This document shows positions 26,328 to 57,325 of a stretch of 64,000 nucleotides of DNA, piece after piece. Positions within the stretch are counted from its first letter, which is position 1. Each line of letters begins with the position of its first letter. This stretch comes from Pedobacter psychrotolerans (GTDB lineage Bacteria > Bacteroidota > Bacteroidia > Sphingobacteriales > Sphingobacteriaceae): the NCBI RefSeq assembly GCF_004340665.1, contig NZ_SLWO01000001.1, forward strand, positions 62,001 to 126,000, given 5' to 3'. Under the pieces are notes generated by a model. That model was not told where the DNA came from. It was given only the letters and a program-made list of their open reading frames with translations, and searched no databases. The translations under genes and the position numbers were made by a program.

Positions 26328-26580
26328 GAAACTTTGAGGGGCAACTCCCCTCCTTATTTTCAAGGAGGGGCTGGGGGTGGTTTTTAAGTTTATTGCACCA
26401 GCCCAAGTTCTCTAAACCCGATTGAAGTGGAAATACTTTTTGTTGCAGCAACCCTTGAATATACTGTCATGCTGAGGTACGAAGCATCTGCAACCGATAA
26501 AACAAATTCTTCGTTCCTTAGAAGGACAGAAGTTGAAAAAGATTGCAACAAAAAGCGGGACTGAATTAACCAAAACGAAT
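26328..26580 (+). repeat. Composite dispersed repeat, copy A
   Basis: A stretch of about 250 bases between hemL and the histidine kinase matches, in reverse orientation, the stretch at 40715-40988. Shared blocks in order: a CTCC-rich block (CTCCTTATTTTCAAGGAGGG), TGGTTTTTAA, TCTCTAAACCCGAT (copy B: TCCTAAACCTGAT), AAATACTTTTTG, GCAACCCTTGAATAT, then the GTCATGCTGAGG palindrome (26464-26529), then a GGACTG...AACC tail. No transposase frame lies inside. The gap 26274-26647 holds nothing else that can be supported. Confidence 0.8.
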
Positions 26581-40714: not shown

Positions 40715-40988
40715 GTTCAGTGCTTTTCGGTTATGGCAGTCCTGCTATTCGTTTCAATCTTTTTTTAAAATTCTGTCATGCTGAGCTACGAAGCATCTGT
40801 TTCATCGGTTGCAGATGCTTCGTGCCTCAGCATGACAGCATATTCAGGGTTGCTGCCAAGCAAAAAGTATTTTCACTACTATCAGGTTTAGGAAACTCGG
40901 GGAAGTGCTTCGATGTTAAAAACTACCCCAAGCCCCTCCTTGAAAATAAGGAGTGGAGTTCCCCTCATAGTTCTATACTTTATGCCAA
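40715..40988 (-). repeat. Composite dispersed repeat, copy B, between leuA and ilvA
   Basis: Read on the minus strand, this stretch follows the same order of blocks as 26328-26580. Its core is a long palindrome (40773-40838) with both halves intact: CTGTCATGCTGAGCTACGAA against TTCGTGCCTCAGCATGACAG. The CTCC-rich arm (CCTCCTTGAAAATAAGGAG, 40939-40957) is present. A 93-codon plus-strand frame at 40720-41001 is made of this repeat and is not a gene. Nothing else is supported in the ilvA-leuA gap (40626-41007). Confidence 0.85.
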
Positions 40989-53493: not shown

Positions 53494-55176
53494 TTAATAC
53501 TCGTCAGTTACACAGCCACTTGCCGCGTCTGAAACTGTTTTAGCATATTTATATAAAACTCCTTTTGTTACTTTCAGCTCAGGCTGAACATATTTTTTTC
53601 TTCGCTCGGCGATCACTTCTTCACTTACCTGCAAACTGATGATGTTGTTTACTGCATCAATCAAAATGCGATCTTCATCTTCAACCAGGCCAATTAAGCC
53701 TCCTTTGTAAGATTCTGGTGTGATGTGACCCACCACAAAACCGTGTGTGCCTCCAGAAAAACGTCCATCAGTAATCAATGCTACCGATTTACCTAAACCT
53801 GCTCCAATAATTGCCGATGTTGGTTTTAGCATCTCTGGCATACCTGGTGCGCCAACTGGCCCGGAGTTTTTAATTACGATAACATCTCCTGGTTGAACAC
53901 GACCACTGGAAATGCCTGCAATTAAATCATGTTCACCATCAAATACGCGTGCCGGACCTTCAAATTTTTCTCCTTCTTTGCCACTGATTTTGGCAACAGA
54001 ACCCTTTTCTGCCAGGTTTCCATAAAGAATCTGTAAATGGCCAGTCGCTTTGATTGGTTCATTTAACTTTTGAATGATTTTCTGATCATAATCCATGATT
54101 GATTTTACATCAGCCAGGTTTTCAGCCATCGTTTTGCCGGTTACCGTTAAACAGTCTCCATGAAGCAAACCTTCATTCAATAAATATTTAAGTACCGCTG
54201 GAATGCCACCATATTGATGTAAATCTTGCATTAAGTATTTTCCGCTTGGTTTAAAATCAGCTAAAACAGGTGTTACATCACTCATTTTCTGGAAATCATC
54301 CTGAGTGATTTCCACGCCGATTGCTTTACCCATTGCAATAAAATGTAATACGGCATTGGTACTTCCACCCAATATGATGATTGAACGAATGGCATTTTCA
54401 AATGCTTTTCTCGTCATGATATCAGATGGTTTGATATCTTTTTCTAATAAAATTTTAATGTACTTACCGGCATCCAAACATTCTTGTTTTTTCTCCGGAC
54501 TTATCGCCGGGTTAGAAGAGGAGTAAGGTAAACTCATACCCAAAGCTTCAATTGCTGAAGCCATCGTATTGGCAGTGTACATCCCTCCACATGCTCCTGC
54601 ACCAGGACAAGTATGTTTAATGATGCCTTGATAATCTTCTTCTGAAAGATTGCCGCAGATTTTTTGTCCTAAAGCTTCAAAAGCAGAAACAATATTTAAT
54701 TCCTCTCCTTTATAATGTCCGGGAGCAATTGTACCTCCGTAAATCATAATGGACGGGCGATCCAAACGGGCCATCGCCATAATTGCGCCAGGCATATTTT
54801 TATCACAACCGGGGATAGAAATAATGCCATCGTAATATTGTCCGCCGCAAATGGTTTCAATGCTATCTGCGATTACATCGCGACTAACCAAAGAGTAACG
54901 CATCCCATCGGTACCATTGCTCATCCCATCACTTACACCAATAGTATTGAAAACCAAGCCCACTAAATCATTTTTCCAAACTCCGGCTTTAACATCTTTT
55001 GCAAGGTCGTTAAGGTGCATGTTGCAGGTGTTACCATCGTAACCCATACTTGCAATACCAACCTGTGCTTTTGCCATATCTGCATCAGTTAAACCGATTC
55101 CGTAAAGCATGGCTTGCGCCGCAGGTTGTGTAGGGTCTTGTGTAAATGTTTTACTGTACTTATTTAATTCGCTCAT
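53494..55176 (-). CDS. ilvD: Dihydroxyacid dehydratase
   Basis: A 560-residue Fe-S dehydratase that makes 2-oxoisovalerate and 2-oxo-3-methylvalerate. Cluster ligands are in '[17 protein letters not shown]' and '[20 protein letters not shown]', a further cysteine earlier in '[15 protein letters not shown]'. '[19 protein letters not shown]' marks the C-terminal active site. Length is typical. It follows the small methyltransferase gene and precedes the ORF6N gene. Confidence 0.96.
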
Positions 55177-55227
55177 TGTTTAAAATGTATATTCTAGTTC
55201 TGTTAGTTATATTATTTTAAAGTTTTA

Positions 55228-55877: not shown

Positions 55878-56768
55878 CTATATAATTACTTCATAATTTA
55901 CTTTCTCAAGCACAAGATTTTTATATGCACGTTGTATGGTATACCCGATAGATTCTCTCCATGAACTACGGAACACAATATCATCAACGGAGGCAATACC
56001 TGCAACTTCAGTAGCTGTTCCACATAAGAAGGCACTGTCTGCATGTCTTAAATCCTCAACTGTCAATTTTTTTTCTATACATTCAATATCAAGCACCGTA
56101 CATAATTCTTTAACAGTTGCCCTTGTTATTCCTGGTAAAATGTTTCCTGGTGATGGTGTGTAAAGTTTTCCATCTTTTTCTAAAAAAATATTAGCACCCG
56201 ATGCTTCAGCAATAAATCCATGCATATCTAAAAGTAAAGCTTCATCATAACCTTTAATGTTTGCAGCGGTAGTGGCCAAAATGGAATTTACATAGTTTCC
56301 GCTCAATTTAGCTTCCATTGGAGTCGACTTTGGATTTGGCCTTTCGTAATCTGAAATGGTTAATTTTAATAGTTTATTTCCAGAATAAGCATCCCAATCC
56401 CAAGCACAAATTAAAATGGATACTCCACTTGGTTCATTCAGTTTCATATTCGGATGGCAAAAAACCAATGGACGGATATAGGCGTCTTTAAGTTTATTTA
56501 GGGTTAGTAACTTATAAGTTTCTTTAATGAGTTCCTGTTTATCCCATGGAAATGGAATATTAGCCAGCTGGCAAGAACGCTCTAAACGGTCAAAGTGGGC
56601 AGCTGCTTTAAAAATGCGGTTACCATTGTGGGTTTTATAGGCTCTTATACCTTCAAAAGCAGCATAGCCATAATGTAGCGACTGTCCATATAAATCAGTA
56701 CTGCTATCTACAGCTTTCTCAAACCGTCCATCAAGGTAAATAATTGTATTAGAATTGTAGTATTTCAT
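55878..56768 (-). CDS. ilvE: Branched-chain amino acid aminotransferase
   Basis: A 296-residue class IV PLP aminotransferase, performing the last step of Ile, Val and Leu synthesis. 'SLHYGYAAFEGIRAYKTHNG' and the PLP lysine K154 in 'TPMEAKLSGNYVNSILATTA' are present, followed by 'DEALLLDMHGFIAEASGANI' and the phosphate-binding 'NILPGITRATVKELC'. It is the first enzyme gene after the attenuator, starting 25 bases beyond the terminator hairpin. Confidence 0.96.
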   Translation of the reverse strand: MKYYNSNTIIYLDGRFEKAVDSSTDLYGQSLHYGYAAFEGIRAYKTHNGNRIFKAAAHFDRLERSCQLANIPFPWDKQELIKETYKLLTLNKLKDAYIRPLVFCHPNMKLNEPSGVSILICAWDWDAYSGNKLLKLTISDYERPNPKSTPMEAKLSGNYVNSILATTAANIKGYDEALLLDMHGFIAEASGANIFLEKDGKLYTPSPGNILPGITRATVKELCTVLDIECIEKKLTVEDLRHADSAFLCGTATEVAGIASVDDIVFRSSWRESIGYTIQRAYKNLVLEKVNYEVII

Positions 56769-56792
56769 AATACCATGTTTTGTTATTTAAAA

Positions 56793-56821
56793 AAAGCGTC
56801 CTGTTTGTATCAGGACGCTTT
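56793..56821 (-). terminator. Attenuator terminator of the branched-chain amino acid operon
   Basis: On the minus strand AAAGCGTCCTG pairs perfectly with CAGGACGCTTT around a seven-base loop, followed by a run of U (CTTTTTTTAAAT), the form of an intrinsic terminator. It lies between the leader peptide stop (56848) and ilvE (56768). GGACAGCTT (56860-56852), spanning the leader's last sense codons, can pair with AAGCGTCC of the 5' arm with one bulged A and would then prevent the terminator from forming. Confidence 0.85.
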
Positions 56822-56847
56822 AAGTATATTTAGTTTTTATAATCTAA

Positions 56848-56982
56848 TTAAAAGCTGTCCGTTTTCTTCGTTAGAAAAATATTTAGAAGTAGCAGGTTCA
56901 GAATAATGACAGGTAACAATACAACATTTACAGCAAAATTTGCAGTAGTGTTATGTAAAAAAGTATTGCTTTGAATTGCCAT
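56848..56982 (-). CDS. Branched-chain amino acid leader peptide
   Basis: A 44-residue peptide starting 'MAIQSNTFLHN'. Its core, 'VNVVLLPVIILNLLLLNIFL', has 15 of 20 residues that are Val, Leu or Ile. The four consecutive leucines use CTG, CTA, CTT and CTA, although TTA and TTG are the common leucine codons in the neighbouring genes. Longer starts in the same frame (from 57036) are possible, but this ATG fits the leader role. The stop is 27 bases before the terminator's 5' arm. When branched-chain aminoacyl-tRNA is scarce, ribosomes would stall on the core and leave the antiterminator segment free. The mechanism is inferred from the layout. Confidence 0.82.
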   Translation of the reverse strand: MAIQSNTFLHNTTANFAVNVVLLPVIILNLLLLNIFLTKKTDSF

Positions 56983-57005
56983 AGTTTTCTGTTTCTTTAT
57001 AAATA

Positions 57006-57036
57006 CCAATTTAGTTTTTGGTCTACTAATAAACAA
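57006..57036 (-). promoter_or_regulatory. Candidate promoter of the branched-chain amino acid operon
   Basis: On the minus strand TTG (57036-57034) is followed after 20 bases by TAAATTGG (57013-57006), one mismatch from TAnnTTTG. The spacing fits Bacteroidota promoters, and transcription would start about 20 bases before the leader ATG. Confidence 0.45.
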
Positions 57037-57325
57037 GAGAAATAGAAAAAAAATGAAATCAGAATATAATTCTATTATTTTTTGATAATATAAAATATAA
57101 TTCTTTTTAAATTGAATAATACTGATATGCTGCGGGTAGGTGTAGACTAAATATCAAAACGGTATACGGTCTGTTTGTTATGCTAGCATTGTAATTTTTG
57201 GATTTTTCTGCTTAAAAACCTTTTTACATCTTGATAATTTGAAAATGAAGTTCATCATTCAAAGATTTTCATTCCTTTCTTTGATCCTAGGAATTTAGTC
57301 TATGCATACCTTTTAACCTTGAATA

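Follow-up and report, generated by a model that had tools for sequence, protein, structure and literature searches.

Leader-peptide attenuation is textbook knowledge for Proteobacteria and is also known from Actinobacteria and Firmicutes. The leader peptides of the ilvGMEDA and leuABCD operons of enteric bacteria are attenuators of this type, and the locus described here resembles them in its Leu/Val/Ile control codons, a terminator before the first gene and an antiterminator that excludes this terminator, whereas it differs from them in showing no kinship in Rfam (Leu_leader, 17.6 bits), in giving no support for a protector helix and in carrying a Bacteroidota-like promoter with what would be a very short 5' UTR. 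The enteric leu leader of Salmonella likewise has CUA among its Leu control codons, and the codon logic is described in PMC1183508. A 2010 survey was aware of no case beyond Proteobacteria and Actinobacteria until it added Firmicutes examples of its own (PMC2965389). The attenuator peptide of Staphylococcus aureus ilvD is similar to the one here in being a short Ile/Leu-rich ORF (26 amino acids) followed by a terminator ahead of an ilv-leu operon, and its reporters respond to Leu; its terminator, however, lies 52 nt past the stop codon and its proposed antiterminator binds the U tract (PMC5794164), whereas here the terminator lies 17–30 nt past the stop codon and the antiterminator strand is inside the last codons. 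The ilvB uORF of Corynebacterium is another conserved short ORF ahead of an ilv operon, although in a different phylum (PMC10272879).

Within the Bacteroidota, a 2021 transcriptome study of Flavobacterium psychrophilum reported strong clues to attenuation by leader peptides ahead of amino acid operons; it concerns the same phylum, operons for amino acid biosynthesis and the same proposed mechanism, its main text does not contain the term 'ilv', and an overlap through Table S7 or the SI is possible (PMC9723704). A Bacteroides study mentions leader-peptide-like sORFs in general terms (PMC7366714), and short upstream ORFs in Bacteroidota have been counted by distance (PMC4833913). Among the paper titles and abstract openings listed, none describes an ilv leader in Pedobacter or Sphingobacteriaceae. 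An earlier note on the present DNA had called its leader peptide undescribed, which holds in part, given the clues from Flavobacterium. Comparison of the locus with that of relatives gives good support to a ribosome-mediated attenuator, a type that is well known elsewhere and has little documentation in this phylum.

The window analyzed here is a stretch of 64,000 nucleotides from Pedobacter psychrotolerans. The features of its ilvE upstream region and of two genes behind it are listed below in the direction of the minus strand.

57034..57036, minus strand: putative -33 promoter element, TTG, 20 nt ahead of the -7 box, with a function suggested by its conservation
57006..57013, minus strand: putative -7 box, TAAATTGG, compared with the Bacteroidota consensus TAnnTTTG
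56982..56848, minus strand: ORF of the leader peptide, 44 codons and a stop codon, ATG to TAA, peptide MAIQSNTFLHNTTANFAVNVVLLPVIILNLLLLNIFLTKKTDSF
56872..56931, minus strand: putative regulatory core VNVVLLPVIILNLLLLNIFL of the leader, 15 of 20 residues Val, Leu or Ile
56884..56895, minus strand: Leu run CTG CTA CTT CTA, the expected stall site upon Leu shortage
56851..56860, minus strand: candidate antiterminator strand GGACAGCTTT in the last ORF codons, with GGAC and GCTTT pairing with the terminator 5' arm and an A bulged
56811-56821, minus strand: terminator 5' arm, common to terminator and antiterminator
56793..56821, minus strand: predicted intrinsic terminator with a stem of 11 bp, AAAGCGTCCTG/CAGGACGCTTT, and a T run behind it
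55878..56768, minus strand: ilvE, branched-chain aminotransferase, first structural gene, TIGR01122 just over the cut-off (247.2 versus 245.55 bits)
53494..55176, minus strand: ilvD, TIGR00110 above the cut-off

Behind ilvE, the same strand carries in turn a methyltransferase gene, ilvD, the ORF6N gene, ilvB and more genes of the ilv and leu sets. ilvB was identified by TIGR00118, above the cut-off, Pfam was also run on the gene row, and the genes beyond ilvB were read by eye from the translations as ilvN, ilvC, leuC, leuD and leuB. The row from ilvE to the leu genes is likely to be one transcript. It holds genes for each of the three branched-chain amino acids, in keeping with a leader whose codons cover the same three. 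The IlvE of the window is 98% identical to that of Pedobacter sp. R20-19, the closest named locus.

The earlier note had pointed to a 44-codon frame upstream of ilvE, to its core with 15 of 20 residues being Val, Leu or Ile, and to the Leu run CTG CTA CTT CTA in a neighborhood that prefers TTA/TTG, and all of these observations were reproduced. The frame is the ORF at 56982..56848, and a recount of VNVVLLPVIILNLLLLNIFL gave the same 15 residues, the highest Val/Leu/Ile count among the window's 333 ATG ORFs of at least 25 codons, with 14 for the runner-up. Across 41 ORFs of the window (15,336 codons), TTA and TTG make up 66% of the Leu codons and CTA 6.7%. CTN accounts for 6 of the 9 Leu codons in the window's leader peptide, a modest excess taken from a single peptide (binomial p = 0.047). 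In the window and 46 close relatives, 182 of the 188 codons in the Leu run are CTN, with four TTA/TTG and two GCA, and the run reads CTN CTA CTC CTA in 35 of the 47 sequences, while CTN makes up 59% of the 427 Leu codons of the whole leaders; these sequences are related to each other, so that the codon counts from them are not independent.

A consensus, TAnnTTTG, and its position have been reported for Bacteroidota promoters (PMC9723704). The pattern TTG-N18-21-TA[AC]ATTGG was present in 71 of 75 regions (the window and 74 named loci). The RNA would be expected to start approximately 5 nt past the -7 box and approximately 20 nt upstream of the leader ATG, giving a 5' UTR of approximately 20 nt. 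The conserved block around ACTAAATTGGTTTTTATAAA was first read as part of a 5' hairpin or as an operator, and the spacing of TTG-N20-TAAATTGG fits a promoter better. When the genome of the window was searched with CTAAATTGGTNTTTATAAA, the only place without mismatches was this one, and up to two mismatches were found at 4 places versus 8 for a reversed control pattern. The -7 box of ilvE does not conform to TAnnTTTG. It is similar to the TAnnTTGY box (SM5), which has been reported at F. psychrophilum genes including those for amino acid scavenging (PMC9723704). Some of the leader ORFs called in relatives begin at an ATG ahead of the promoter box (by up to 21 nt), and their true start must therefore be an inner ATG.

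Downstream of the leader, the hairpin follows the stop codon after 26 nt, and the end of its stem is 24 nt away from the ATG of ilvE. The final codons of the leader, ACG GAC AGC TTT TAA, contain GGAC-A-GCUUU (56860–56851), which is complementary to AAAGCGUCC in the terminator 5' arm. This antiterminator strand, which is absent from the earlier note and was found in the present analysis, starts 22 nt past the last Leu/Val/Ile pair; a ribosome stopped in the Leu run would be at least 22 nt short of it and would leave it uncovered. With the terminator 3' arm omitted, the antiterminator fold has an energy of -10.7 kcal/mol, and the duplex alone one of -11.1 kcal/mol. As alternative foldings of the same sequence, terminator and antiterminator are mutually exclusive in the window.

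These elements suggest a mechanism in which the ribosome decides between the two foldings. When amino acids are plentiful, charged Leu-, Val- and Ile-tRNAs would allow the ribosome to reach the stop codon and to cover GGACAGCUUU, so that the 11-bp terminator would form and RNA polymerase would halt ahead of ilvE. When Leu, Val or Ile is short, the ribosome would stall within the Val/Leu/Ile core and leave GGACAGCUUU free to pair with the terminator 5' arm, and transcription would continue through ilvE and the genes behind it. Translation of the leader, stalling, termination and a response to amino acids are what we infer from this arrangement. At the sequence level, the locus has the properties expected of such an attenuator: codons for the products of the pathway are clustered in a small ORF ahead of the operon, a predicted intrinsic terminator separates this ORF from ilvE, an antiterminator excludes the terminator and, by the geometry of 79 loci, a ribosome at the stop codon would hide the antiterminator strand, whereas a stall at the control codons would expose it. 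We consider it very probable that this element controls the ilv(-leu) operon by ribosome-mediated transcription attenuation.

To compare the ilvE upstream regions of relatives, we collected 115 of them, namely the window, 74 named loci from one scan and 40 regions from further genomes. Of these 40, other genera of the family contributed 22 (35 of their genomes matched), divergent Pedobacter 2, and other families of the class 16 (17 genomes matched). The sample is limited to genomes with an IlvE similar to that of the window; 53 of 151 genomes in the order sample and 175 of 197 in the class sample have no such IlvE at E 1e-60, and the results do not extend to them. A fixed criterion was used, asking for an ATG ORF of 14–60 codons with at least 6 and at least 25% Leu/Val/Ile and a stop codon 8–45 nt ahead of a terminator-like hairpin. 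Of the 115 regions, 92 passed, and in 87 of these the antiterminator duplex was at -8 kcal/mol or below. None of 2300 dinucleotide shuffles passed. In front of the other ORFs in the named loci, not counting ilvD, 3 of 210 regions did, none of them with a -8 kcal/mol duplex. The passing regions comprised the window, 70 of 71 named loci of Pedobacter type, all 3 named loci of Chitinophagaceae type, both divergent Pedobacter, all 4 from genus g9 and 11 of 16 from other families of the class (eight family codes); the counts for genera g2, g4, g8 and g12 were 1 of 13, 0 of 2, 0 of 1 and 0 of 2. An earlier, narrower criterion had given 80 of 115 regions and 3 of 2300 shuffles. The first script, with hairpin loops of at most 12 nt, missed 12 named loci, and after these misses the loop limit, stem trimming, minimum number of G-C pairs and search length were altered and the shuffle control was rerun with the new form. 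The change dropped L121, and its gains include L124 and the doubtful L134. The gap between stop codon and hairpin is 17–30 nt in 80 loci. In a separate scan upstream of the window's ATG ORFs of at least 100 codons, which allowed any amino acid but demanded a duplex of -9 kcal/mol and a hairpin of greater strength, this leader was the single hit.

The earlier note had interpreted the frame as a leader peptide of the branched-chain operon and had proposed a comparison upstream of ilvE, naming conservation as a membrane protein or absence of a conserved core as outcomes that would speak against it. The interpretation gained support from the recurrence of core, gap and hairpin in 70 of 71 named Pedobacter-type loci and in other families. 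Conservation as a membrane protein was looked for and is not what the relatives display, as the tail switches frame and mainly the richness in Leu/Val/Ile is kept outside the close clade. The core does recur upstream of ilvE in relatives, but it is absent from the sister genus g2, whose 13 regions (L128-L139, L142) are without ilvE leader and terminator apart from one doubtful hit; this absence counts in part against the interpretation. The hit, in L134, is a 22-aa ORF with 7 Leu/Val/Ile and a 44 nt gap, its hairpin lies 298 nt ahead of ilvE, and it is probably due to chance. By eye, the g2 sequences inspected contain a promoter-like pair (TTG...TAACTTGA in L128) and neither leader nor hairpin, and ilvD is closely behind ilvE in the 7 g2 genomes searched. 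On visual inspection, L126 of genus g4 contains a Leu/Ile-rich ORF resembling a leader together with an imperfect hairpin, although it failed the criterion. L056 retains the promoter and a hairpin with a T run with no Leu/Val/Ile ORF, possibly as the result of a loss of the sensor.

We examined the pairing of the antiterminator strand with its own terminator in 25 representatives chosen by hand for differing terminators or lineages. The mean antiterminator energy was -11.7 kcal/mol for cognate and -8.2 kcal/mol for non-cognate arms, and none of 20,000 permutations in a re-pairing test reached the cognate energy sum. The cognate arm was the single best in just 5 of the 25, because the set contains related arms. 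For four representatives (L070, L073, L113 and L120), the pairing within the 35 nt examined did not exceed that of shuffles; in a longer region, L070, L073 and L120 reached -16.4, -13.6 and -15.7 kcal/mol, and L113 only -7.2 kcal/mol.

Of the 80 loci found with the first criterion, 79 had a duplex of at least -8 kcal/mol in strength, and the geometry was analyzed in these. At the median, the antiterminator strand begins 10 nt past the last Leu/Val/Ile pair, and its end is 3 nt ahead of the end of the stop codon. Relative to the end of the stop codon, it overlaps positions -15 to +12 in 78 of 79 loci and lies wholly within -24 to +12 in 74 and within -15 to +12 in 37. Its start is at least 9 nt past the last Leu/Val/Ile pair in 63 loci and less than 9 nt in the other 16, where a ribosome stalled on the final control codon would overlap part of the strand, so that only stalls further upstream would free it. 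The tail that contains the strand occurs in two frames in the 47 close sequences, 22 being like KKTDSF and 25 like KRTQFK, and both types are complementary to the terminator arm through different pairings. On a tree of the 47 species built from 3.4 kb of ilvE and neighboring DNA, the frame label changes at least 11 times, compared with 12–20 times for shuffled labels in 200 draws, and on ilvE alone it changes 12 times; this count could be inflated by tree error or by exchange of the short region. The frame differs between the well-supported sister species L021/L034, L007/L012 and L010/L011. Given that the tail changes frame while staying complementary, it appears to be kept as RNA and not as protein. 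A three-helix layout of the trp type, suggested by a CUGUC/GACAG fold in the window, was dropped: the duplex of the protector helix 1:2 was no better than shuffles in the 47 sequences (mean z of -0.08 and 0.02).

The ORF could instead encode a small membrane protein upstream of ilvE, with the hairpin doing no more than ending its transcript. The length and hydrophobicity of the core would suffice for a membrane helix, and the sole Pfam match of the peptide is a phage membrane protein family, DUF7442, below the cut-off (E 0.024, 15.0 versus 23.8 bits), while NCBIfam profiles gave no match. However, the tail went through at least 11 frame changes among 47 species with its complementarity to the terminator kept, and the composition differs from that of membrane-like segments, with a mean of 12.7 Leu/Val/Ile per 20 residues in 92 leader cores versus 9.2 in 26 membrane-like segments of the window and with Phe, Ala, Met and Trp together at 9% in 23 diverse cores versus 24% in such segments. 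Outside the clade, length and sequence vary freely and the place before ilvE is kept. We regard this explanation as very unlikely.

A terminator with an alternative helix would equally suit a T-box, a riboswitch or a protein-bound RNA, with the ORF being incidental, but such an attenuator deserves as little credence as the membrane protein. All Rfam matches at the leader region are below threshold, including Leu_leader (RF00512) with 17.6 bits against a gathering score of 50 (E 0.35), which places the element outside this family; no T-box covariance match was obtained at the gathering score in the window or up to E 5 in 56740-57140. In addition, the putative promoter leaves little space for an aptamer before the ORF, and the content of the ORF and the position of its stop codon are kept relative to the antiterminator. 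The gathering score was reached in the window just by two matches to Flavo-1 RNA, both far from the leader and barely over the score (26410-26566, plus strand, and 40734-40893, minus strand). That a hydrophobic ORF came to lie ahead of an ordinary terminator by chance has a negligible probability in our judgment: short ORFs are frequent in AT-rich intergenic DNA, but 92 of 115 ilvE regions stand against none of 2300 shuffles and 3 of 210 other ORFs, and no permutation in 20,000 equaled the cognate pairing. For ribosome-mediated attenuation, the ORF, its codon content, the terminator-like hairpin, the complementary antiterminator strand, the spacing and the conservation can all be read directly in the DNA.

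The control scan of other ORFs in the 74 named loci gave 44 hits among 284, and 41 of the 44 were located before ilvD, which points to a second leader-peptide attenuator, with mainly Ile/Val codons, upstream of ilvD in 41 of 74 named loci (e.g. L014 and L050). The ilvD leader is often MNINTNIISNLIIVISQKRGGNRCV, its terminator is GAAACCGCCTCC...GAGGCGGTTTT, and the antiterminator is mostly at -13 to -14 kcal/mol. It has a promoter-like pair of its own, TTTG or TTCG followed after 17–21 nt by TAnnTTTG, in 26 of the 41 loci by a strict pattern. The other 33 named loci have no ilvD leader by the same criterion, and the window lacks it as well, its counterpart region (55177-55227) being approximately 50 nt between the methyltransferase gene and ilvD. 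Some species would thus have ilvE and ilvD under separate sensors of differing content, and the genome of the window probably has the ilvE leader alone. In 26 genomes that mostly lack the ilvE leader, we also searched the 450 nt upstream of ilvD (25 genomes matched, with 27 loci, and the remaining one, L176, was without an ilvD signature); 4 loci had a hairpin at a distance of 316–369 nt, and a leader ORF was absent from them.

Taken together, we lean slightly toward the view that ilv operons in much of the class are controlled by a minimal two-helix attenuator, in which the antiterminator lies in the last leader codons and the stop region and is free of the reading frame, and that many Pedobacter split the pathway between two sensors, one for Leu/Val/Ile at ilvE and one mainly for Ile/Val at ilvD. 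If the two-helix reading is true, the ribosome would be needed close behind RNA polymerase, which would imply tight coupling of transcription and translation in a phylum whose translation does not depend on Shine-Dalgarno sequences. The leader would then be a ready assay for ribosomes closely trailing RNA polymerase in a group with atypical translation starts, and an ilv attenuator recurring in several families would be a concrete regulator of branched-chain amino acid synthesis in these bacteria. For a histidine leader, the genome of the window has 7 places with a run of His codons, 2 of them in an ORF and neither of these with a terminator-like hairpin within 140 nt.

Two observations concern the surroundings of the attenuator. 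In L010, L020, L021, L023, L028 and L030, the spacing from terminator to ilvE ATG is approximately 86–99 nt longer than in the window, and some of these six loci carry an inverted repeat there, e.g. CATGATTAAA...TTTAATCATG. Within the operon of the window, the ORF6N-domain gene (Pfam PF10543; 52862-53419, minus strand) sits between ilvD and ilvB and belongs to a kind known from phages.
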